Shown in pieces: positions 7,382 to 60,184 of a stretch of DNA of 64,000 nt. Made by a program: the position numbers and the translations under genes. The notes below the pieces were generated by a model. It did no database searches. It was not told the DNA's origin and saw nothing but the letters and a program-made list of their open reading frames with translations. The first letter of the stretch is position 1. The number at the start of each line of letters is the position of its first letter. This DNA comes from Asterias amurensis (taxonomy: Eukaryota; Echinodermata; Asteroidea; Forcipulatida; Asteriidae). The stretch lies in NCBI RefSeq assembly GCF_032118995.1, contig NC_092665.1:12814512-12878511 (forward strand), read 5' to 3'.

Positions 7382-7507
7382 CTATAAGAAGAATGACAAT
7401 CACACAAAGGGTTTATCTTAAAATCTTATTAATAAAATAACCTGCCTGCCGCGATGTTTTACTTGTTTCATCGTGGTGATGACATACTTCATGATTGGAA
7501 GGTTTAC

Positions 7508-9193
7508 CTGAGGTTTGTGGCAAATCAGTCCTGTCTGCCTCAGGGACTCGTAGTTTCTTCTCATCAGTATCTGATGCATCCGGCGACTTCCCTTTGTTAC
7601 CTGCTCTTGGGGATGTGGGTTCGTAACCTTCAAGAAGAATGACAACACATAAAGGGTTTTATTGTAAACAATCTTACTAACAAAATAACATGTCACTAAC
7701 AAAACAACCTGCCTGCCATGATGTTGTACTTGTTTCAACGTAATAATTCATGAGTGGAAGGTTTACCTGAGGTTTGTGGCAAATCAGTCCTGTCTGCCTC
7801 AGGGACTCGTAGTTTCTTCTCATCAGTATCTGATGCATCCGGTGACTTCCCGTTGTTACCTGCTCTTGGAGATGTGGGTTCGTAACCTACAAGAAGTATG
7901 ACAACACACAAAGGGTTTTATTGTCAAATCTTCCTAACAAAATAACATGCCACTAATAAAAAACCTGTCTGCCGTGATGTTTTACTTGTTAGAACGTATT
8001 AATTCATGTTTGGAATGTTTACCTGAGGTTTGTGGCAAATCAATCATGTCTGCCCCAGGGACTAGTAATTTCTTCTCATCAGTATCTGATGCATTCGGTG
8101 ATTTCTCTTTGTTACATGCTCCTTGGAATGTGGGTTCGTAACCTACAAGAAGTAAGACAACACATAAAGGGTTTATTGTAAAATCTTTCTAACAAAGTAC
8201 ATGCCACTAACAAAATAACCTGCCTGCCGTGATGTTTTACTTGTTTCAACGTATTGATGACATAATGCAGTACTAGAAGGTTTACCTGAGGTTTGTGGCA
8301 AATCAGTCCTGTCTGCCTCAGGGACTCGTAGTTTCTTCTCATCAGTATCTGATGCATCCGGCGACTTCCCTTTGTTACCTGCTCTTGGGGATGTGGGTTC
8401 GTAACCTTCAAGAGAATGACAACACATAAAGGGTTTTATTGTAAAAAATCTTACTAACAAAATAACATGTCACTAACAAAACAACCTGCCTGCCATGATG
8501 TTGTACTTGTTTCAACGTGTTGTTGACATAATGCGGTACTGGAATGTTTACCTGAGGTTTGTGGCAAATCAGTCCTGTCTGCCTCAGGGACTCGTAGTTT
8601 CTTCTCATCAACTCCTGATGCATCCGGCGACTTCCCTTTGTTACCTGCTCTTTGGGATGTGGGTTCGTAACCTACGAAGAAGGTGTGACAAAACACAAAG
8701 GGTTTTATTGTAAAATCTTACTAACAAAATAACATGCCACTAATAAAATAACCTGCCTGCCGCGATGTTTTACTTGTTTCAACGTATTGATGACATAATG
8801 CGGTATTGGAAGGTTTACCTGACGTTTGTGGCAAATCAGTCCTGTCTGCCTCAGGGACTCGTAGTTTCTTCTCATCAACTCCTGATGAATCCGGCGACTT
8901 CCCTTTGTTACCTGCTCTTGGGGATGTGGGTTCGTAACCTACATGAAGTATGACAACACACAAAGGGTTTTATTGTAAAATCTTTCTAACAAAATAACAT
9001 GCCACTAACAAAATAACCTGCCTGCCGTGATGTTTTACTTGTTTCAACGTATTGATGACATAATGCAGTACTGGAAGGTTTACCTGAGGTTTGTGGCAAA
9101 TCAGTCCTGTCTGCCTCAGGAACTCGTAGTTTCTTCTCATCAACTCCTGATGCATCCGGCGACTTCCCGCTCTTGGGGATGTGGGTTCGTAAC
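7508..9193 (-). repeat. Array of seven 120-bp cassette exons
   Basis: Seven copies lie at 7508-7627, 7767-7886, 8023-8142, 8286-8405, 8552-8671, 8819-8938 and 9084-9193, in repeat units of about 257-268 bp that include the introns. Each is bounded by AG and GT (CCTCAG/GTAAAC) and is phase 1 at both ends, so any number can be included without shifting frame. A full cassette adds 40 residues beginning YEPTSPRAGNKGKSP and ending LPQTSG. The 7508 and 8286 copies are identical, while the 8023 copy is diverged but open. The 9084 copy, first in transcription order, lacks 10 bp and would shift the frame. The cassette resembles the first third of the DD1 exon, its likely parent. Confidence 0.88.
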
Positions 9194-34640: not shown

Positions 34641-34663
34641 GGACACACTCGTATGTCACTAAT

Positions 34664-34985
34664 AGGTTTGGGTAAATTTGTCTGTATATACCCGAACCAA
34701 ACAGTGCAAACTTTTAGTTTTTGGTAATTTTTTTTATTATAATAATATACCCAAACCACAGATGCTATCTACTAGGTTTGGGTAAATTTGTCTGTATATA
34801 CCCAAACCAAAGAGTGCAAACTTTTAGGTTTTGGTAAATTTGTTTGTATAATATACCCAAACCACAGATGCTATCTACTAGGTTTGGGTAAATTTGTCTG
34901 TATATACCCAAACCAAAGAGTGCATAGGTTTTGGTAAATTTGTCTGAGTGTATACATGCCACCAAACCAAACAGTGCAATCATTA
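34664..34985. repeat. Three tandem ~108-bp units
   Basis: Units start with AGGTTTGGGTAAATTTGTC at 34664, 34774 and 34880. Each unit also contains internal inverted TTTGGGTA / TACCCAAA pairs. The third has a small deletion and diverges at its end. Confidence 0.85.
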
Positions 34986-35159
34986 GTGTCTGCCATAGGC
35001 CTACCTCAAAAACGCTAATTATTTGCATGTGGTATATAGTAGATGGTGGACATTTTTCCAAGAATAGGCTTTCTTCAAGTTCTTCTTCACTCTGCGACGT
35101 TCAAGATGTATGAAAATGCAGCTTTCGGCTTCCACTCAGGTCGCCCTGTTCTCTCAAGT

Positions 35160-35631
35160 ATAGACCTTTTCGCAAATACCCATTGCGCAAGCGCTAACTG
35201 TTGAAAAAGGTGCATGCTGGTTTAGCTAGCAATCAAATTTGACCACTAGCTAGACTAGTATGTTCCTCATTTATGGTGTTCTAACGTCACTCGTCACGTA
35301 GTCCGTCACGTCGTCCGTCGCGTCGTCCGTCGCGTCGCCCATCGCCCGTCACGTTGCCCATCGCGTCGTCCGTCGCGTCGCCCGTCACGTCGTCCGTCGC
35401 GTCCCCCGTCGCGTCGCCCGTCGCGTCGCCCGTCGCGTCGTCCATAGCGTCGCCCGTCGCGTCGCCTGTCGCGTCGCCCGTCGCGTCGCCCGTCGCGTCG
35501 CCCGTCACGTAGTCCGTCGCGTCGTCCGTCGCGTCGCCCGTCACGTAGTCCGTCGCGTCGTCCGTCGCGTCGCCCGTCGTCCGTCGCGTCGTGCCGTCGT
35601 GTGTGTACCGAGTATTTGCGACAAGGTCTAC
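35160..35631. mobile_element. MITE expanded by a minisatellite
   Basis: The termini TAGACCTTTTCGCAAATAC (35161-35179) and GTATTTGCGACAAGGTCTA (35612-35630) match those of the 152-bp element at 38041-38192. Here the interior is about 300 bp longer because of the 12-bp repeat at 35290-35595. The right half overlaps the last OAS exon. Confidence 0.85.
35290..35595. repeat. GC-rich 12-bp minisatellite
   Basis: About 25 copies of a GTCGCGTCGCCC-like unit with single-base variants. The 12-bp period keeps reading frames open: on the minus strand one frame reads RRDG repeats (the OAS frame) and another reads GDAT repeats. Confidence 0.9.
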
Positions 35632-38600
35632 ATGGCCACACTGTGACGTTTTCCATGAGGTTTGTCTGAAGGGTTCTTTCGACAGCGTCGGCCAATACCT
35701 GCATATAGATGGTTAGATTGAAAACACTACGTGAGTCCCATTGCAGCTGAACAAACTTTGTCTGGTATGATGAGAGCACCCTCTTTTGAATCCTCCTCTA
35801 GAACCCCCAACCCACGTTTATGGTGGACATAATCTCTGGGGGCAGATTTCGCCATAACACTAGCCTTTAATCAAGGCGCACGCTTCGGCGGCACCCCCAG
35901 ATGTCACACGAAAAAATACCAGCGCCTTGAGCAACTCGTTTTTATCTAATCAGTTATTCATATGCAGCTTCTGTGTATGTGTTGCTCTCAGCACGTGACT
36001 TTTTAGCGCACCATTATGTGTGTGTGGGTAATGGGGAGTGCACGCGGCATGCAATTAAACCAAAAAGTAAAGAAAAACATAAGGCCCCAAAACGAGTTGC
36101 TAAAGGCGCTTCGCAGCTTCGCACTGGTCTTTTTTCGTGCGTGATATCTGGGGTCGTGCTTGACACCCGGGGGTGCCGCGTGCGCCTTGACTAAAGGCTA
36201 CCATAATACATGTACATTGTTCGTTTAATTATCAGCGCTATGATTTCATTGGCTTACCTGTATGTAGTCCCACAGATGGTAGCAAACATTGTTCGTCGGA
36301 TTTGCCGGGTCCAAAACGATTGGTCTGTGGGTAGGGGGAGGGGAAGACGTTAGCATGGTTGTGGTTACAAGTACTAGGTACAGGTACAAGTACTCAATGG
36401 GAGACTTTTGTGACGCTTGGTGGCAGCAGACTTACCAGGTAAAATCCATTGTTCGCGGTAACGTGCGCATGCTCAGAACTACATAAACAATATAAATTTA
36501 CCTGGTAAGTTCGCTGCCACCTAGCGTTCCAAAGTCTCCCATTGTTTCTCTTTGCATGAACAATGAAGGTGGTACCAGATATCTTATGAATAGGGAGCGG
36601 CATGCTTGTTCGCAAGCAGCCTGTGCGTGGGGTTTCTGGGTACTAGACTTTACTCAGTGATTCTGTTTTCGTGTAAATGATGTCAATTAAGCAAAGTCAG
36701 CAAAGTATTATATAACATTTTTATGTTACACGGTCCATTGCTTTTTGCTAATGCAAATTTCCATGCAAATGTTTTGTCAGGCAGAAATTTCAAAGACGGT
36801 TGCATAGATATGCAAAAAAGGAAGACAATGTCCTTCATTTGTTTATTTTTTATTCGCGCAAAGCACAATTCTTAGTTTACCTTTTCATGTCGAGTTTCCT
36901 GATGATAGTTTCGTTGAGCTGATCATCGACACTGGGCATGTAGTTCCAATAAACACGCAGCTCGTCCAGATTGGTCAAAACCTCCAAGACGCTCCTCAAA
37001 CCCTGGGCTTTATCAAGATAACTTGGCTTCCCTGCCTTCTCCCACCGGTAGATGGTGATCAACTCCAGAGGGTAGGACTTCTGGAGATACTTAGGAAGGA
37101 ATCTAGACGCCCAATACTTCACCAGGCGTATTAACTCCTTCACGTGGCCGGGTTGTCCCTTAACAAACCGCACTTGGTGATGAACGAATGATGCAGAATA
37201 AAGCTGTCTTGTTCCGTTCCCGACTTCTAGCATAGACAGAAAGAGTTTGCGAAACGCTGAAGGAAGAAATAAGAATCAGAAAGAAACACTGTTGGACATT
37301 CCCTTTCTGAAGATGACAACATTATTCAAACTAAACACCATTGGCCGATGGATTAATTTAACTGAGAATGGTAATGTTGAAATGCAGGGATTAAGGGACA
37401 CCGTCTTCGGACTGGGCGCTTTGGGCTTTATGAACTATTGTTGGAAAAGGTGTTTTATAAGTAAATAGGCCTACATGTATACCTCGAAAGTTATTTTATG
37501 TGGTTTGCCTTTTTCTTCGTGAACACACACAGTCTGACATCAATTTTGCAACACCAATTTTGTTTACTCAACTCACAAAAAACTATTGCCCAATCCGAAG
37601 AAAACTTATGTTTATCACTGCGTTCTCGATTCACTACTTACGCATCTGACATTTTAGAATGTTCTCCGTCGTGGGAAGAAGATCGAAGTCAATCCACCGA
37701 CTGCCGACTCTTATCTTGAAAGTCAACATGAAACGATTGGATCGTATGATTTGGATGCTCGGCGAACCATCTAATAATGACTCTACATCGGAAATTATTC
37801 CCGCCAAAGTTTCCCTATACTTTTCTTTTCCAATCACTGCGATGGGTTGTAGGTATGGCTTGTTGACAAACGCAACCAGATCCACGTCCGATAGATCTTT
37901 TACCATAGTGCCCTTTCCGAATGATCCACCCTGCGAATGATACAAAACAGCTGATCACATACACTTCATTATATACCAACTCAATCTTCAAACTATTCCC
38001 AATGTCATGGAGCTGTTTAAGTACAACATGTGGTTAATAATAGACCTTTTCGCAAATACTGGGGCGCGCGCGTAAAGCTTGGAATTTGGTGCATTGTGGT
38101 CTAGCTGGTAGCAAAATTTGATGCATATCTATCCCACAATGCACCTCATTCAACAGTCTGCGCTTGCGCATTTGTATTTGCGATAAGGTCTATGTAAGGA
38201 TCGCAAGTGCGCCCTCGACGGTGTTGAACTTGTCAAAAGTTAACTTTGGGTTCGTTACGTGATAATCCATCTCTTTTGTCCAAAGCTTCGTTCCTCTGAG
38301 TGGTATTACTCTCTATATTTTGTGGCTCTGGCCATGCTCCAAAAACTATTTATCTGGAAGGGATAAGCTCACATAGCCTTTTGTGAGTGTCACAAGTTTA
38401 AACTCTAATTGTTGTAAGACTCTATTTGACGAACAGCGCCATCGTGCCTTTTTCAACGCCTCATAACTCAATGTAGACTGGGCCCCTGTCTTTATCCGCT
38501 TAATGTAAGATCCAGTGATTCCATTGGGTACAATATAATAATAATTATACGTGCAGTGACATGAGCTTTCCATAGTAGATGCCCGAGCAGTACACTGCTG

Positions 38601-41600
38601 TCACGTCTGCAATAGAATTTGACTGCGTATCTCTATGTGAAATGAATGGGGTCAAAGGTGAAAGTACACGCCGGTTCGAAGGCAGGTCTCTGGCGTTATC
38701 ACACGAGCCTCGAAGTGTGACGTCAGATGTTCAGGCTAAACTCAATGCGCTTATAAGATCCCATGACTTAACGAATTTCACATGATAGAGCTTGCAACCC
38801 TAAAACAAATTTAAGTGCAAAATGGGTAGGATCTTGTTGATTGGTACAGAGAGATGATAATAAAGATCAAAGGTCAAATTTTACCAATTGCATTTTCACA
38901 TCTATGTAACCTCACGCGCCAACATAAAAAAAACTGTTTACTGAAAACCAGATGAAGAAACAGCTTTCATCTAATGACAGATGAAAAAAAGAATCATGGG
39001 ATCTCTGCAATTTATATGTCAAAAGATTTGTTGAAAATGTTCTACGTATTGCCATTCCACACGCATTAGTCTAGAATTGGCACAACATTCACTTTACTCA
39101 ACACGATCCCATCAATGTTTTCTTCTTAAACAGATTTCAAGTGAAACAACTGGGATCACGTTGGGGCACAAAACTAATAAAGGTCAAAGGTCATTCAAAA
39201 CTACACTATGTTGTGGCTGCCCTGGCTAAGGATTGATGTTTGTTATCAACCACTTGACTAGGCTCGGCCAAGATTTATGTGTACAAACATATAGAGAAAG
39301 GACGAACAACCACCCCACCACAGGTTTGGTAACTAGATTTTCAAAGTGAATGAACCCACCATGTGCAAAAAACAACTGTCATATGTTTATCCTATTGACT
39401 GCCCAAATGTACTTTAAAAAAAAACTAACAATGCATGGGCGGATCATTATTAAAGAACAAAATAGCAAAAACCTATACACAGACTGTAGAGCCGCCCTTT
39501 AGCCGGAGGGTTCAACAGCTATAAGGCCTATGTAAATAGGCCTGGGTGATAGCCAACAAGAAACAAACTGGTTGTGTACTTTAGGACAACAACAATGTCC
39601 TCAGAAAACTATTAAAATATAAATATAAATATTAAGAGTAAACTTGCGGGTACAACCATGTAATGGGGAAAATCTCTTTTGAAGGAGTGGTGGCTCTGAA
39701 AAGAGCCGGTTTGGTCTCAACGTTTTGAACAGTATACTCTGTTCGTCTTCAGGAGAATGCTGGACTAGTGGTGGTGGTGGAGCTTTTGTATGGCTGGAGG
39801 GATGCACTTTTGGGCGGGAAGGATCGAAGCTGTTCTTGTCCGGTGAAGGGTGTGAGTTGGTTTTAATATTTATATTATAGTTGCTCTTATTCTCCACACC
39901 ACACTCATATCCATATTGGAGTCGAATTACTCTGTACGCAGAGTAAACAACATTTTACTCTCATTAAGGGTCAATTGGACTACAATCAGAGTCATTTTGG
40001 CTCCGGCCCAGAGTCGTATTGGCGGGCTTGCAAAGTTAGTGAACTTTTGTCAGAAATTTCGCGCGCGCGCAGTAGCCGTAGTGGTCTGGTCACTAACTCT
40101 ATACCTAATCTAGCAATGAGAGCTGGCAGCGGTATCCAGACGTACGTTCGTTGCTATGTTGGTTGACATCTTGGATTTCCGATGATAAGAAGAAAGTCAT
40201 TGCCAATGTCATTGCTGTAACTCAAACTACTTGATTGTCGGTGGAGTCAAATTGCACTTTTTGTAAGTTATGAAAAAACATGTAATTGTTATGTGGTGTT
40301 GAGTAGGCCTAGCGTTTAGACATGTTAGAGTAGAAGTGGTGGGAGACAAACAAAATATCCTGGGTACGATCGGTAGGATTCGATCTGGAGCTAGCCTTCC
40401 GGATGGACACACACAAGGCATTCATGCAGTCTTGCATTGTCATTGCCACAGCTAACGTTCATGACGTTATGCTTATTATTTAATAAGTTAATTACGGGGA
40501 TGTTTTTATTTAACATTTAGGCTGACAAGGCTGAGCATTTCATTCAAATAATGGCCCAGCCCCGTACAGTACCAGTTTTTAAAGGCAGCCATTGTACATA
40601 CACACTACCCGTCAATTCAAGTGTATGTTGAAACATTATGACCTTGTACACACAACAGAACGTAACTTTAAATTCAGTTGTGGGGTCACAAATTGTCCAA
40701 AGATGTATAAAAGTGTGCGATCACATTGTAAAAAAAAAAATTGTAGCAAAGGGGGGGGGGGGGTGTCAAAATGGTAGTCTGATTTTATATAGGGGAGAGA
40801 TTTTTTTGACTAGATTTTAAGAAACTTGTATGTAAATCTGTGCTCAGTTTTACGGTGCTGCTTACTATAAGCCAAAAATAGGTGCTTATGTATAAATGTA
40901 AGTATATTTCATGGGTCAGTATGGAATGTTCACTTGTGTATGGTGTGTACTTCACGATACCCGGCTTACTGCAGAACTTTGGCTCTAACCCTCTACTAAG
41001 TGAAGAATGATTAAGTCATTGCCCTTTGCCCAATTTTCTTAGAGCTTTTAAGCATTACATATTGCTTGAAATTTATTCAAAGTAAGTAAAACAATTGCGG
41101 GGAACCAGTTACATGGCATTTTGACTGGTAACCTCCATCTGCTGAGTAACATTTTTCTGTGCTTTGCGAACTTGTGCGCTTAGCCGCTTTATGAAATTGG
41201 GCCCTGGTAAGCAAGCAATCTTGTATGAAAACTGGTTTCCATATTGTTTACTTGAAAAATAGCTACCTGGACAACACAGAGTACAACATCATCGCTCGTT
41301 CAATTTTGCAAGATTACCCACACTTGACGGAGGGATTGAAATATACAGATACAGTGGTAAGTATTGCAAAAGCTTGCTGTGAAGTCTCTTGGGTTACCCA
41401 TGTCTATGTAATTAAAAAGATTACATTTGGTGGGTTCTAGATAAATAGAAAAATAGCATGACCTTCAGCATTTTTTTTATTTGTGACATAAATGTATGTC
41501 AAGATCTATAACAAAATAGTGTATGGAATAAATCGTGATGGAAATTGGTCTCATGCATTTAGAATGTGTTTGGCAGAACAAAGCCAGCGTATTAAGGAAA

Positions 41601-44034
41601 AGCCATAAATTATGTTTACTGTCCAATGCTGCTGGTTTTCCCTTCACAAAAACATCTAACAGGCTTTTCAATCATAGCAGATTTAAGCTTAAGATCTCCA
41701 TCTTGTTTTTCACTGTGCTTTAATAGAGAGGATTGATTACCCAAAAAGCTGTCATGACATGGTTGGTACTTATCTTTTCTGTTACAACTCCAAAATAACA
41801 TGTTTGTTTTTCATTTTGTATCATTTAGTACATGTGGCATCAACGTATAAAGGACAAATTTAAAAATTCCAGGAAGCGTGGAGACAGAGATCAACCACAA
41901 GTTGTTAAACGTCTTGCTGCCTCATCAGCTACACCAAGTGGCAAGAGTGCTGTGAAAAATGTATGGGGACTAGTTCATTTTCTACCTGAAAGGAGTGCAG
42001 CTGACAGTGACGATACAATACAACAATTCATCAAGCAACTCCAGGTACAGTACATATTATGCAGGGCATTTTGTTAATAGTATTGTTCGCAACGGTGTAA
42101 CTGTATTTTGCATTGGGTATTTTTTTCCCCAATATTATTGTTGGATTGTTTGAACCAGTGGGAACTATATATATTTATATTTTTTTCAACAACTTCACTC
42201 CTCCTTATACCTCTTACTTTGCACCAAACTGCTGACACAATGAACCCATTTACTTGCCTGTTTTCTTCTTCCTACCACCAACTCGGATACTTAAAAATCT
42301 TGTTCCCGCTTCCTACATTGTACCTTGACTTTCTAGTTTCTACTCTTTCTTTTGTTCATCTCTAGGCAGTTCTTCCACTTCAGTGTATATGCACCTGCAG
42401 TCCATAGTTGTTATGTAAAGTTCCAGTAATACTTTACTACTTACAATTACATTTTGTCTTTTTATTTGGTGACACACTCTGGACCAATATAATGAGTAGA
42501 ATTTATGGATGATGTGGTATTTTGTAACAATGAAAATATTATTAAGTAATGGTTGTCTTTACTTTATTCTTATTTAGAGACAGAGCCAACTGAAAAAAGA
42601 CAAACGTGACCAGGAACTAATAACATCAAGAATGGACAGTACCTTCGCTGACAGACGTCAAGAAATAGTTGTTAAGAATAAGTCGGTGGCATCTATCAAG
42701 GTCACCTATCCGATTTTATTCAATGAGCAAGAGGTAAGTTTTGATTGATGTATCAAAGGTGTGTGTGTGTGTGTCTTGCATTTGATTTGCAGATTTAGGG
42801 TATATGTGCTGCTTGAAATAATACAAGTCCAACCTCGTTCTCATTTTCAAAACAGATCACCAGAGAATTTATGAGACTATCAGAGAGAAGCTTGGGAGAT
42901 TTTACCAATGGTGTGAAGAAGTATTCAGACAGACTGATCTGCTTGAAGTCGGCAAGGGGGAAACTTTCAGAGTTAGCCACTGAATGTATGGAAATGGCCC
43001 GGACTTCAGAGCCACCAATAAAATAATTCCAATGAAATCATTCGAATACAAAAACTGGTGCTGTATTTAAATTTTAAGATAAGAGCAATGGCACATTATG
43101 CTTATTTAACTTATTTTTATCCAAGCAACCAATGAAATAATTCAAATGAAATAATCCAAATACAAAAACTTGTGTTTTTATTTTATTTTAACAATATGTA
43201 AGAGCCATGTCACATTTTAACAAAGAGCAATGTCACATTATGCTAAAAGTAATTTTTGTTTCGTGCAATTTAATTTTCCCCTTAGCATTACTTTTTAATT
43301 TGTACAATGTTAGTTCTAACATCGCATTTGAAGTTAATGCAAACAGTTATAATAAAACCATTGAGAGCTATGTATAAGTTAGCCGAAAGAAAATGTTGTT
43401 CATATGTCACATACTTATGATTTGCCCCATCCAAAACTATATAAGAATATTATGTGTCACTAGTATTGCAAAATGTTCGCATCATGATTCTGTGGTCCAT
43501 GTCCCCCCCCCCCCCCGTTACCCCGTTACCACCCCCCGGTTCTTTTGCAAATGCAATTGACTCCACTAGACAAGTCACCATGACTCGTGAACAGAGTCAT
43601 TTGACCCCTAAAAGGAATCGCTGAAGAGAGTTACCATGACTCTTCAAGAGTCGTTATGACCCTTCCAAAGGAATGGCACTTGACTCTAATGAGTGTCAGT
43701 CGAACCTTATAATAGAGTCATTTTAGACATAGTTGCTGGACTCCATTTAGAGAGTAGGCTTGACTCTGTTTTGGATATGAGTGCATGCAAAGCTTCAAAC
43801 ACCATTTGTCCTCACCTTGACAATTTTACCAACACTGAAGTCGAGAATTTCAGGGATACAAACAAGTTGAACGAATGTGACCAGACCGTTAACTGCTGAT
43901 CGACAGTCCCTCGCGTAGGCGTCCGTTCCACGCTGTATATTGTCGTTATACCAACCACCTAGTTCATCCTGAGGCAAACACCAGGGCTCTGCATGCTCCT
44001 CCGCATCAGGGGCCAACGACCACACACCGCCCAT
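35306..44034 (-). CDS. OAS-like: 2'-5'-oligoadenylate synthetase (437 aa)
   Basis: Exons 44034-43816, 37930-37642, 37226-36881, 36324-36258 and 35698-35306 agree in phase (0, 1, 2, 0) and give 437 residues. The nucleotidyltransferase core has GGSFGKGT at 74-81, the Asp pair SDVDLV (D88, D90) and the third Asp in WIDFDLLPT (D156), so the catalytic triad is complete. The OAS C-domain follows, with FVKGQPGHVKELIRLVKYW, YPLELITIYRWE and RPIVLDPANPTNNV. OAS makes 2'-5' oligoadenylate from ATP; vertebrate enzymes do so when bound to double-stranded RNA. Residues 308-329 close the fold. From C330 the frame enters a MITE and reads an Arg-Arg-Asp-Gly-rich tail of about 108 residues to TGA. Intron 1 (5.9 kb) contains an opposite-strand gene remnant. 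No signal peptide is seen, so it is probably cytosolic or nuclear. Confidence 0.92.
36395..36544. mobile_element. Palindromic MITE in OAS intron 3
   Basis: CAATGGGAGACTTTTGTGACG is mirrored by CGTTCCAAAGTCTCCCATTG. The arms also share GGTGGCAGC and CTTACCAGGTAAA and meet around a loop of about 35 bp. Confidence 0.85.
38041..38192. mobile_element. MITE, 152 bp, in OAS intron 1
   Basis: The termini TAGACCTTTTCGCAAATAC and GTATTTGCGATAAGGTCTA are inverted. The interior also folds (GGTGCATTGTGG / CCACAATGCACC). It shows the normal size of the family expanded at 35160-35631. Confidence 0.88.
38200..38370. repeat. Dispersed repeat also present at 60960-61140
   Basis: GTGTTGAACTTGT.AAAGTT, GAGTGGTATT and CCATGCTCCAAAAACTATTTAT occur in the same order in both places, about 75 percent identical overall. 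Confidence 0.65.
38800..39600. other. No gene seen (inside OAS intron 1)
   Basis: AT-rich intronic DNA without recognisable features beyond short homopolymer runs. Confidence 0.45.
39692..39707 (-). promoter_or_regulatory. Histone-mRNA-type 3' stem-loop
   Basis: The minus strand reads GGCTCTTTTCAGAGCC followed by ACCA, the exact 6-bp stem and 4-base loop of metazoan replication-dependent histone mRNAs. A purine-rich CAAAAGAGA lies about 10 bases further on, as a histone downstream element would. No histone coding sequence lies upstream, so it is either a fragment or part of a repeat. Confidence 0.6.
39715..39755 (-). ncRNA. Hammerhead-like core, degenerate
   Basis: On the minus strand CCTGAAGA is followed by a GAACAG / CTGTTC hairpin and then AAAACG. 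This resembles the CUGANGA..stem II..GAAAC core of hammerhead ribozymes found at the ends of some retroelements, but with AAAAC for GAAAC. Stems I and III are not convincing. Confidence 0.25.
39916..40250. repeat. GAGTC/GACTC-rich repeat
   Basis: GAGTC-type pentamers and near variants occur every 10-30 bases to about 40015, and again at the TGGAGTCAAATTGCA end near 40235. A similar block is at 43556-43760, starting GCAATTGACTCCAC. They look like two copies of one element. Confidence 0.45.
40551..43026 (+). pseudogene. C2H2-type gene, 3' exons intact, 5' part decayed
   Basis: Nested in OAS intron 1 on the other strand. Near 40580-40730 the DNA encodes pieces of C2H2 fingers (FKCMLKHYDLVH, then FSCGVTNCPKMYKSVRSH) but in shifted frames and running into poly-A and poly-G. 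Exons 41263-41356, 41829-42044, 42578-42733 and 42856-43026 agree in phase 0 and encode 211 residues to TAA: SYLDNTEYNIIARSILQDYP, MWHQRIKDKFKNSRKR, then MDSTFADRRQEIV and SIKVTYPILFNEQE. This order matches a large family of zinc-finger/SAMD3-like proteins in fish and marine invertebrates whose function I do not know. The finger region looks broken, so I call it a pseudogene; a shorter transcript from 41263 on remains possible. Confidence 0.6.
43556..43760. repeat. Second GAGTC/GACTC-rich repeat
   Basis: At least eight GACTC or GAGTC pentamers lie in about 200 bp (ACCATGACTCTTC, CAAGAGTCGTTATGACC). See 39916-40250 for the related copy. Confidence 0.5.
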
Positions 44035-44605: not shown

Positions 44606-45783
44606 ATAAACTGCGCCAATAAAGTATCTAAACACTTACAAATGGTCAGATATATCGGAACCTGAAATAGTATGCCAAAAAATAATTATTCATTTCTATT
44701 CACCGTTAATTTCTGCACATTTTGACACATCTTATGTTGCGCTACGATGTTGTTTGGTGGATTTATGGGCACTTGAGTGGCTTAAGGTCGAATTTCAAAA
44801 GTTGCAAAAGCCCCTATTCAAGCTAAATCGTTGTATTGTGACGAGTAAGATCAGCGTTTCTTTTGCCCGCCCTTTATAAATGATTTTTTTGTCGCGTTTT
44901 GGATAAATCGGTTGCGATGAACATCAGCAATAATTGTCAGTAACCAAGCAAAGGGGTCAAAGATGGGTGGCATACAACAAAATGGGTTAAGAGCCAGAAT
45001 CCCTGATTATGGTAAGACAGGGAAAGGTGTTTCAAGATAACAGGAAAGATGGCCATAACAGGAAAGATGGCTCAACTGACCAAACAGGAAAGAGGACGGA
45101 TCGTTGGTTTGATAGAAGCCGGTATGTCGATTCGAGCTGCAGCTCATCAAGTTGGAACGTCACCAGCGACGGTCAGTAAAATGGTGGAATGGCTACCAAG
45201 CTCAGGGAAATGTGGACAACCTGCCAAGGAGTGGCCGCCCGAGTGTGACTTCTGCAGCAGAAGAAAGTGAACAAGTCCATCAAGCCTGACACCACTCTCG
45301 AGGGATTGCGACGCATCCTGATCAGGAAATGGCAGGGGATTGACCAGGGACAGATCAGATGTCTCGTTGGGAGTATGAGAAGACGACTCATTGCCGTTAA
45401 CAGTGATGGAGGACACACCAAGTATTGAGGACAGGATATCAGCAGTTTTAGAGTTAAAGATACGGCCATAAATTTCATGGTCAAGTAAACGAAACGGGTT
45501 TGTGTCTTTTGTCTTGATTTTGTCTGTGTGTGAGGCTTGTGTGAGTTCCCTTCTGGATCGAATTGGGGTGAATAGAGGCTTTTGCAACTTTTGAAATTCG
45601 ACCTTAAGCCACTCAAGTGTCCATAAATCCACCAAACAACATCATAGCGCAACACAAGATGTGTCAAAATGTGCAGAAATTAACGGTGAATAGAAATGAA
45701 TAGTTATTCTTTGGCATACTAATTCAGGTTCCGATAAATCTGACTTTTCGTAAGTGTTTAGATACTTTATTGGCGCAGTTTAT
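44606..45783 (+). mobile_element. Tc1-like element, internally deleted, long TIRs
   Basis: Terminal inverted repeats of roughly 210 bp (44608-44820 and 45570-45782) start AACTGCGCCAATAAAG and are flanked by TA, the Tc1/mariner target. They pair closely, including the GGTGGATTTATGG.CACTTGAG stretch. Between them lie only the start and the end of a transposase (45049-45428). Confidence 0.88.
45049..45428 (+). pseudogene. Tc1 transposase remnant (N and C ends joined)
   Basis: MAQLTKQERGRIVGLIEAG then AAAHQVGTSPATVSKMV is the paired-like helix-turn-helix of Tc1 transposases. A frame shift follows (the next frame reads QAQGNVDNLPRSGRPSVT). From about 45310 another frame gives WQGIDQGQIRCLVGSMRRRL and GGHTKY before TGA at 45426-45428, the usual Tc1 C terminus. 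The DDE catalytic core of about 200 residues is gone, so the element can only move with outside transposase. Confidence 0.85.
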
Positions 45784-55542: not shown

Positions 55543-56690
55543 TCTATTTTTAAGCACATACATGGTTGGCTAGAGTATGGTTTTTATTGTGTTATTCTAA
55601 AATGGCTAGAAGATATTTTTCTTCAGTGCGGGCCAGTTTTTTAGTATTATTTGGCTTGAGAACATTTTCCCCAGTGTGGGCCTAAACTTTATTGTTACTT
55701 GGCTCGATAAGTTTTTCTCCAGTATGAGCTTCAACTTGTTTAATAGTTGGCCCGAGAACATTTTCTCCAGTGTGAGCCTAACTTAATTACTACTTGGCTC
55801 GAGATAGTTTTCTTCAGTGCGAGCCTAAACTTTATTGTTACTTGGCTAGAGAACATTTTTCGCCAGTGTGAGCCTAAACCTTTTTTATTACTTTTGGCTC
55901 GAGGAGTTTTTCTCCAGTATGAGCTTAAACTTGCTTATTACTTTTTACTTGTACTTGTACTCAAGTACATTTTCTTCAGTGCGAGCCTAAACTTTATTAT
56001 TACTAGGCTCGAGAACATTTTCTTGAGTGTGAGACTAAACTTTATTATTACTAGGCTCAAGAACATTTTCTTCAGTGTGAGGCTAAACTATTACTAGACT
56101 CGAGAACATTTTCTTCAGGTGAGACTAAAATTTATTATTAATAGGCTCGAGAACATTTCTTCAGTGTGAGGCTAAACTTTATTATTACTAGGCTCAATAA
56201 CATTTTCTTCAGTGTGAGGCTAAACTATTACTAGACTCGAGAACATTTTCTTCAGGTGAGACTAAAATTTATTATTAATAGGCTCGAGAACATTTTCTTC
56301 AGTGTGAGACTAAACTTTATTATTACTAGGCTCAATAACATTTTCTTCAGTGTGAAACTAAACTTTATTATTACTAGGCTAGAGAACATTTTCTTCAGTG
56401 TGGGACTAAACTTTATTATTTCTTGGCTCAAGAACATTTTCTTCAGTGTGAGACTAAACTTTATTGTTACTTGGCTCAAGAACATTTTCTCCAGTGTGAG
56501 CCTAAAACTTTATTATTAATTTTGGCTCAAGGAGATTTTTCCAGTGTGTGCTTAAAACTTGTTTATTACTTGGCTCAAGAAAATTTTCTTCAGTGCGAGC
56601 CGAAACTTTATTTTTACTTGGCTCGAGAATATTTTCTCCAGTCTGAGCCTAACTTCTTTTCTATTGGCTTGAGGTTAAATTAGTTGCCAG
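55543..56690 (+). repeat. ~48-bp minisatellite (GGCTCGAGAACATTTTCTTCAG)
   Basis: About 24 copies of a unit with GGCTCGAGAACATTTTC, TTCAGTGTGAG and CTAAACTTTATTATTACTA, varying in length and sequence. A block of about 120 bp near 56090-56160 repeats at 56210-56290. Related degenerate units form the end of each 2365-bp repeat upstream. The open frames across it on both strands are products of the period and are not genes. Confidence 0.92.
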
Positions 56691-57465: not shown

Positions 57466-57589
57466 CGCGGCTATGGCGTGTCAAACGTTGCATTATTCGA
57501 TAATGTACAATATATGTGCGATGTTTCTCATATATATGCGATAATTGTCACATATGTGCGATATTCATTTGATGTATGCAATAAATGTA

Positions 57590-57780
57590 ATATATATGCA
57601 ATAAATGTAATATATATGCAATAAATTGTAATATATGTGCGATAAATTGTAATATATGTGCGATAAATTGTAATATATGTGCGATAAATTGTAATATATG
57701 TGCGATAAATTGTAATATATGTGCGATAATTTGCAATATATATGCGATAATTTTTAATATATGTTTGATAATTTTGTAGT
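57590..57780. repeat. 21-bp tandem repeat, left arm
   Basis: Units of the type GCGATAAATTGTAATATATGT occur five to six times in perfect register (57620-57730), with looser 18-bp GCAATAAATGTAATATAT forms before them. Confidence 0.85.
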
Positions 57781-59819
57781 ATATTATATGCGATCATTTG
57801 TATGCGATGTTTTGTGACGGTATACATATGCGATAATTTAATATACATGTGCGATGTTCGTTCTTATATATGTGCGAAAACGGAATTGTGGGATATAGTA
57901 TGGCTTCCTGTCCACTTGATCCCCGTATCCGTAATGTTTTAGATCGGGCCAGACTATACTCTGGACGGTATAGTATGGTTCCTATGGTTCAATGAGATTG
58001 GCGTAGGGTTTATAGTGATGGTCAGGGTATGAGACTCGAGCAGCGTATTTCCGAAATAGCCAGCCAGCCGCGTATTCGGATAATAGAACACATACAGTAC
58101 AGGGAGGTGACAAAATGTTGCATTTTGCTCAAATCTGAAGGTGAAGATCTGTTTTACTCGAACGAATTCTGCAATATTAGCATAATTTAGAATTTTTAAT
58201 TGATTATATGTGAATTTCGTAGCTTCACATGATTAAAAAATAATTTATAAAAAGTGAAAAACATTAACAAAACGTCAAAAAATGACCCGCAAACAAAAAG
58301 GCAAAAATTTTTATTTTGTATTTTTTGCATTTTTTAATATGTCAAAAAACATCACTGTGAAATACAAAACCATAACTTGAAAAGAATTTATACCCTTCGT
58401 TAAAACAAAACATTTAATTTGTAATCCAGAACTTTCAAGACTAATATAGTGGGCGTATCAAATTTTGGAGCTGGGTAAATTTGGTTCACTATCTAGTGGT
58501 TAATTAACCACAGTTATTCTGACGCATTGTCAATGTACATTCCGCCCAATTACATAGACGGTGGACTTAAACACAATTTGAAAAGAATTTGAACCCTTCG
58601 TTAAGACAAAAAGTTGCTTTCTTGTTCCAGAATCTTGAAGGAAGATAGACTGGACGTATCAAATTTTGAGCTGGCTAAATTGGTCAACTATTATTGATTC
58701 TGCAATAAAAAGAAAATGTTTAAAGAAAATGTTTGAAGAAAATGTTTGTCTTATCGAAGGGTGTCACCACCTTTTGCTCGCGGCTGACATAACTATAAAT
58801 GTGGTGACTAATATTCCAAAAATTTGAAAAATGATTTTGCAAACAAGACACAGTTGAATTTTTATAGCACAAGAACTTTTAAATTTTATTGACAACAATT
58901 AAAAATAATCAATCATGAGTGTTTCAGATATAGCTCGGTAATTTACTAACTTTAACTGTTCTACAATTTAAAGTCACCTGGAAATAGAAGTGTTTTTCTT
59001 TCAAACATAAGAGTATATGCTTACGAACAATAAAACAATTTATTTAGTAATTGATAAGACAAACATTTTCTTTTTATTGCAGAATCAATAATAGTTGACC
59101 AATTTAGCCAGCTCAAAATTTGATACGTCCAGTATATTAGTCTTGAAAGTTCTGGATTACAAATTAAATGTTTTGTTTTAACGAAGGGTATAAATTCTTT
59201 TCAAGTTATGGTTTTGTATTTCACAGTGATGATTTTTTGACATATTAAAAAATGCAAAAAATACAAAATAAAAATTTTTGCCTTTTTGTTTGCGGGTCAT
59301 TTTTTGACGTTTTGTTAATGTTTTTCACTTTTTATAAATTATTTTTTTAATGAAATTGACATATTATCAATTAACATATCTAAATTATGCTAATATTGCA
59401 GAATTCGTTCGAGTAAAACAGATCTTCACCTTCAGATTTGAGCAAAATGCAACATTTTGTCACCTCCCTGTACTGTATGTGTTCTATTATCCGAATACGC
59501 GGCTGGCTGGCTATTTCGGAAATACGCTGCTCGAGTCTCGTACCCTGACCATCACTATAAACCCTACGCCAATCTCATTGAACCATAGGAACCATACTAT
59601 ACCGTCCAGAGTATAGTCTGGCCCGATCTAAAACATTACGGATACGGGGATCAAGTGGACAGGAAGCCATACTATATCCCACAATTCCGTTTTCGCACAT
59701 ATATAAGAACGAACATCGCACATGTATATTAAATTATCACATATGTATACCGTCACAAAACATCGCATACAAATGATCGCATATAATATACTACAAAATT
59801 ATCAAACATATATTAAAAA

Positions 59820-60075
59820 TTATCGCATATATATTGCAATTTATCGCACATATATTACAATTTATCGCACATATATTACAATTTATCGCACATATATTAC
59901 AATTTATCGCACATATATTACAATTTATCACACATATATTACAATTTATCGCACATATATTATAATTTATCGCACATATATTACAATTTATTGCATATAT
60001 ATTACATTTATTGCATATATATTACATTTATTGCATATATATTACATTTATTGCATATATGTTACATTTATTGCA
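59820..60075. repeat. 21-bp tandem repeat, right arm (expanded)
   Basis: The same unit in reverse (ACATATATTACAATTTATCGC) with about eight copies, then 18-bp ATTGCATATATATTACATTT forms. It has more copies than the left arm, so the arms have drifted in repeat number. Confidence 0.85.
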
Positions 60076-60184
60076 TACATCAAATGAATATCGCACATAT
60101 GTGACAATTATCGCATATATATGAGAAACATCGCACATATATTGTACATTATCGAATAATGCAACGTTTGACACGCCATACGCG

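Follow-up and report, generated by a model that had tools for sequence, protein, structure and literature searches.

The window, i.e. the whole stretch of 64,000 nucleotides of Asterias amurensis DNA analysed here, carries an intact-looking OAS gene of five exons on its minus strand. In the exon model that we built, 447 codons are joined in frame across GT-AG introns to give one spliced open frame. Exon 1 (43816..44034) starts with the ATG at 44034, ends in AAG before the donor gtgagg and is homologous to exon 1 of the A. amurensis proteins P0001 and P0003. Exon 2 (37642..37930) encodes a GGSFGKGT loop and the residues Asp88, Asp90 and Asp156; it matches the Pfam nucleotidyltransferase domain (NTP_transf_2, PF01909, 5.4e-06). 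Exon 3 (36881..37256), exon 4 (36258..36324; PIVLDPANPTNNVCYHLWDYIQ, GT-AG) and exon 5 (35306..35698) jointly match OAS1_C (PF10421, 4.8e-35), and both domain matches lie over the curated cut-offs. Exon 5 follows the acceptor atctatatgcag, begins with GTATTG and is composed of 68 native bases, 107 codons encoded by a MITE and a TGA stop at 35308-35306.

Judged by its sequence the gene is an OAS, as an earlier note on this DNA had stated. In addition to the OAS1_C match, a PDB sequence search with the window gene gave OAS2, OAS1, OASL and OAS3 as the best matches, while bacterial CdnC matched more weakly. The gene retains 48 of the 50 columns that are conserved among 32 homologs, with the Asp triad among the features kept. 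D88, D90 and D156, which we take to be the catalytic triad after mammalian OAS1, align to those of paralog P0001, and the GGSxGKGT loop is present.

The introns and the downstream flank of the gene contain further repeats. An inverted-repeat element different from the one in exon 5 (35861-36200; ends TAGCCTTTAATCAAGGCGCACGC, 96% complementary) fills more than half of intron 4, and intron 3 has a further inverted-repeat pair at 36395-36544, with its arms at 36407-36443 and at 36497-36533 (86%). Intron 1 has an Rfam match to the histone 3' UTR stem-loop on the minus strand at 39668-39712 (score 35.3, gathering threshold 34). Palindromic tandem repeats of 51 and 106 bp occur at 34657-34946, directly downstream of the gene; related sequence is found 3' of paralog P0001 at C18:12879512-12879598 and also at 13614162-13614260. 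Elsewhere in the window there is a foldback of about 2.7 kb (57472-60180), which has arms of up to 616 nt with 98% complementarity and 21-bp tandem arrays near both outer ends, and there are long tandem arrays at 7430-9168 (267 bp) and 55640-56652 (48/96 bp).

The element in exon 5 is 470 bp long (35161..35630) and consists of the family's usual element, some 154 bp in length, and an added tandem array, with TA at both ends. Its terminal inverted repeats are 19 bp each and 95% complementary; the left arm (35161..35179) is on the plus strand, and the right arm (35612..35630), on the minus strand, is inside exon 5. The element is short, has terminal inverted repeats and occurs in many copies, which places it in the MITE class. 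A search of the genome (491,506,623 bases in 23 contigs) gave at least 74 matches to the family; this is a lower bound, as are the 1059 first-look candidates, 40 of which were scored. Scored matches outside the window copy were 73-90% identical and none of them extended past base 114 of the 470. In 19 of 29 fetched loci the two ends were 149-160 bp apart. A second member of the family, of 152 bp and free of the array, is in OAS intron 1 (38041..38192). A TA target-site duplication would mark a MITE of the Tc1/mariner type. Since CA precedes the TA in 16 of 19 copies and TG follows it in 11 of 19, part of the TA flank seen at both ends of the exon-5 copy may belong to the element itself. At 45016-45270 on the plus strand the window also has an open frame that resembles, by eye, the start of a Tc1-type helix-turn-helix transposase.

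The tandem array (35292..35579) is composed of 12-bp units arranged head to tail and thus has the structure of a minisatellite, with 24.4 copies at 83% matches. The minus-strand unit CGACGCGACGGG encodes Arg-Arg-Asp-Gly. The earlier note had placed the minisatellite beyond the MITE, and this has to be corrected: both the array and the stop codon are inside the element, between its inverted ends. We also rejected the MITE and the minisatellite as separate neighbours, because the second inverted repeat is located at 35161, beyond the array. None of the 29 fetched MITE loci carries the 12-bp array, and the array-free consensus of the family aligns to both sides of it; by this alignment the array occupies a GC-rich variable hinge near one end of the element. 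A 33-base array probe, allowing up to 3 mismatches, was run over the whole 491.5 Mb. All 15 hits were in the exon-5 element and a reversed control gave none. By that test, which would miss strongly diverged arrays and covered one unit type, and with 29 other MITE loci inspected, the array is private to the exon-5 copy. A dispersed satellite of the genome was therefore rejected as an explanation of the array, which is part of the MITE and no satellite placed next to it.

The native part of exon 5 comprises 22 codons and two bases of a Cys codon (..ENVTVWPC), and the base that follows is the first base of the MITE. The last OAS exon thus crosses the right end of the element, at 35630, as had been claimed, and the frame indeed stays open through the Arg-Arg-Asp-Gly-rich repeat up to the stop. 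The predicted tail after ..ENVTVWPC starts with RPCRKYSVHTRRHDATDDGRRDGRRDGL; the earlier note gave about 108 residues, and the exact count is 107. The tail and its stop codon are wholly MITE sequence. Forty-four of the 107 residues are Arg, 21 are Asp and 20 are Gly. The net charge is +24 (about +0.22 per residue, 24/107) with a charged fraction of 0.62, and the computed isoelectric point rises from 7.0 for the core to 9.9 with the tail. With Arg and Asp dominant and a positive net charge, the tail has the composition of an Arg-enriched mixed-charge domain. The notion that it can grow or shrink freely applies to the middle of the array, where 19 clean units are in frame; the edges are irregular on both sides, and near the 3' edge of the array an off-period unit shifts the frame ahead of the stop.

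The open frame by itself is not proof of coding use, and we rejected it as such. Entered from the OAS side, two of the three frames are open for more than 100 codons (107 and 113) and the third stops immediately, so an open frame is unsurprising once the element sits there in its orientation. From the opposite side all three frames stop within 13 codons, and one minus-strand frame through the array region has eight stops.

Next we consider the end of the gene before the insertion. The downstream flank that would hold the old C-terminus and stop (35050..35160, minus strand) aligns to paralogs. When the flanks are joined with one TA kept, the frame reads VWP plus 25 residues and then stops, which agrees with the view that the element extends the frame. 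An alternative joint, in which four bases came with the insertion, gives VWP plus 19 residues, the first of them a Tyr as in two paralogs. In the two nearest paralogs (at 12.88 and 13.62 Mb) the DNA can be aligned to both flanks of the joint and lacks the four bases; the alignment is clear for the 13.62-Mb paralog and has many gaps for the 12.88-Mb one. The position of the old end is thus uncertain by 4 bp in these alignments. An end shared with homologs was rejected: their coverage of the joined-flank query was mostly 91%, which we read as ending near VWP. P0016 covered 100% of this query, but its end differs by eye. An A. rubens ortholog was not found in the protein searches, in which the A. 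rubens proteins P0002 and P0005 were 73% and 50-54% identical. A further protein, P0019, was 80% identical over 43% of the query.

The genome contains 18 OAS1_C matches, 17 on C18 and one on C21; those on C18 form three clusters at 2.17-2.20, 12.85-12.94 and 13.58-13.62 Mb. The earlier note had proposed that the OAS stop be compared where the MITE is absent. Twelve other terminal exons were read from the 18 family loci, and all 12 reach their stop 0-23 codons past the conserved Trp, which favours an extension by the element. A structure model of paralog P0001, built with 32 sequences, has a mean pLDDT of 88.5. Its best PDB matches are porcine OAS1 with dsRNA (top) and human OAS1, so the OAS fold is recovered on this paralog. 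The model is confident to about residue 361, and pLDDT is below 50 for residues 362-368, just after WPYF. Because confidence falls there, the MITE probably joined the enzyme at about the end of the fold, as judged on the P0001 model. The protein P0001 matches its exons at 92-100%.

Together, these results make it quite probable that a MITE inserted in the last exon of an OAS family member in a frame that reads into a tail of 107 residues; our confidence applies mainly to the insertion and the frame. That the tail is translated we hold to be possible, a shade short of probable. In the sequence of events that we propose, the element would have entered the last exon of one family member at the boundary of the folded core. 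The minisatellite of about 24 units of 12 bp sits in this copy of the element, in a GC-rich hinge close to one end, and the OAS frame reads through the inverted repeat and the larger part of the array until it meets the stop. The 107 residues would replace a short, poorly conserved native end. Transcription of the gene and translation of the tail would presumably give an intact enzyme core followed by a disordered, Arg-rich segment of mixed charge. If this segment behaves like Arg-Asp domains, it could bring the enzyme to RNA or nuclear bodies. Within the clean part of the array the frame would survive when whole units are gained or lost. Such a tail is most likely a change that a redundant, fast-evolving family tolerates; adaptation is unproven.

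A somewhat unlikely alternative is that the insertion silenced or crippled this gene copy, in which case the gene would be a paralog that is dying or not expressed, and no tail would be produced. Protein searches with queries of 291 and 447 residues found no A. amurensis record for the window gene, although they gave records for seven OAS clusters of the same chromosome (P0001, P0003, P0006, P0024, P0026, P0027 and P0072). These searches span proteins of 0.55 to 1.75 times the query length, and one of them scored only those 7987 candidates that had most words in common with the query. P0072 (707 residues), a public paralog model with two OAS units in tandem, was rejected as the window gene since it maps to 13.58 Mb. 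However, several other loci of the family likewise have no protein above 90% identity, so the missing record may reflect annotation. The gene itself also argues against silencing: all five exons are intact, as are their splice sites and 48 of the 50 conserved columns. For exons 2 and 3 (221 codons) dN/dS between the window gene and seven relatives was 0.42-0.58, inside the range of 0.37-0.83 for all 28 pairs of the eight members, and none of the eight has a stop codon in these two exons. The gene thus appears free of decay, albeit by a test that a recent loss would escape. Stops in other family members affect at most two of the 18 OAS1_C matches and may lie in introns.

It is unlikely that the gene is expressed but ends in the normal short form, the tail being bypassed through another last exon or through early cleavage. 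The A. amurensis model P0072 joins exon 5 to a further exon soon after the Trp, so the family may splice near this position. Two paralogs have GTGAGT or GTGAGA there, but the flank in the window reads TTGAGA and is located beyond the MITE. As to early cleavage, the minus strand from 35700 to 34738 contains no AATAAA and only a CATAAA at 35275, which is past the stop. The first AATAAA 3' of the tail stop, a possible poly(A) signal, is at 34733..34738.

More doubtful still is that the tail is produced and that selection maintains it as a transposon-derived, Arg-rich mixed-charge domain tuned by the number of repeats. Consistent with this idea, the array probe matches only the MITE copy that lies inside the OAS exon. 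The start of the tail coincides with the end of the fold, where in mammalian OAS1 a C-terminal prenylation signal sets localisation (PMC7612834), and net-positive Arg-Asp domains are described to gather in speckles and nucleolus (PMC9324279). Furthermore, of the eight CpG transitions counted in the clean units (19 in all), six are silent when read in the OAS frame, against one in each of the other two frames; four of them would produce stops in one of these other frames, and none would in the OAS frame. With a duplicated block dropped the count is five of seven (binomial p 0.013), and by variant type it is two of four (p 0.26). The test was made post hoc on units that are non-independent, and the silent bias may be taken as a hint only of coding use. 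Against selection, all array variants together look neutral in sequence: among the distinct variants of the clean units three are silent and five are replacements, where about 31% silent would be expected. In addition, the locus was chosen for lying in an exon, and other MITE copies were probed for one array unit only. The full claim, of a translated, selectively kept and length-variable RRDG tail that was born as a minisatellite in one transposon copy and steers the enzyme to RNA-rich condensates, is even less probable.

Least probable of all is that a faulty assembly produced the array or the insertion, or that either belongs to a rare private haplotype: one individual and one assembly stand behind it and the repeat is GC-rich, but the HiFi reads of this 491.53-Mb assembly (mean 12.51 kb; PMC10625585) easily span the 288-bp array, and both MITE ends are present.

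The preferred reading, a MITE insertion with an open frame into it, has its closest precedent in the OAS1 of horseshoe bats. There an LTR insertion at the C-terminal end removes the CAAX prenylation signal, and this insertion is reported as common to a bat superfamily (PMC7612834, PMC10683996). The earlier note had regarded the sea-star locus as a rare case; this view stands in part, since horseshoe-bat OAS1 also has a transposon at its C-terminus (PMC7612834). In both systems the OAS coding region has a transposable element at its very end, and this element changes the C-terminal tail while the rest of the enzyme stays intact. However, the bat LTR removes a signal, whereas the sea-star DNA MITE would add 107 codons, and the sea-star insertion is seen in one assembly of one species rather than in a superfamily. 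In the literature on mollusc and echinoderm OAS and on transposon-made C-terminal extensions, the sea-star case was not found to be reported.

Variation at the C-terminal end, after the folded core, occurs in other OAS proteins as well. OASL has a ubiquitin-like tail. The p46 and p42 isoforms of mammalian OAS1 differ in their tails (PMC8357416, PMC7612834). In these proteins the variation comes from splicing or domain fusion; in the sea star it comes from a transposon insertion.

Tandem repeats inside MITE-like elements are already known from Porphyromonas and Drosophila. The Tetris foldback element of Drosophila virilis contains tandem repeats that form long satellite-like arrays (PMC4079207), and BrickBuilt of Porphyromonas gingivalis is described with 19 occurrences that are always intergenic (PMC4596501). 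Both are, like the sea-star MITE, non-autonomous inverted-repeat elements with internal tandem repeats, but the sea-star array was found in one copy and in a coding exon.

Known Arg-enriched mixed-charge domains include those of SNRNP70 and NELFE and the synthetic (DR)50 (PMC9324279). According to the same source, nuclear speckles accumulate Arg-Asp domains, an effect that is stronger when the net charge is positive, and clustered Arg moves these domains to the nucleolus. The sea-star tail is likewise rich in Arg and Asp, with a net charge per residue close to the +0.2 that is said to raise speckle uptake. It differs in being built of RRDG with glycine and about two Arg for each Asp, with no alternation of R and D. 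A tail of this kind could by analogy relocate the enzyme to RNA-rich bodies. A change in RNA binding or phase behaviour, as the earlier note had suggested, would be a possible effect of it.

If the tail is untranslated, the locus would cleanly illustrate how a transposon can alter or end one copy of a gene within a redundant immune cluster. If it is translated, the sea star would join the horseshoe bats as a further, independent instance of a transposon that rewrites the C-terminus of an OAS protein. The length of such a tail could change unit by unit within a population, and the gene would then provide a direct way to ask how a dsRNA sensor is tuned by a tail that is both disordered and mutable.
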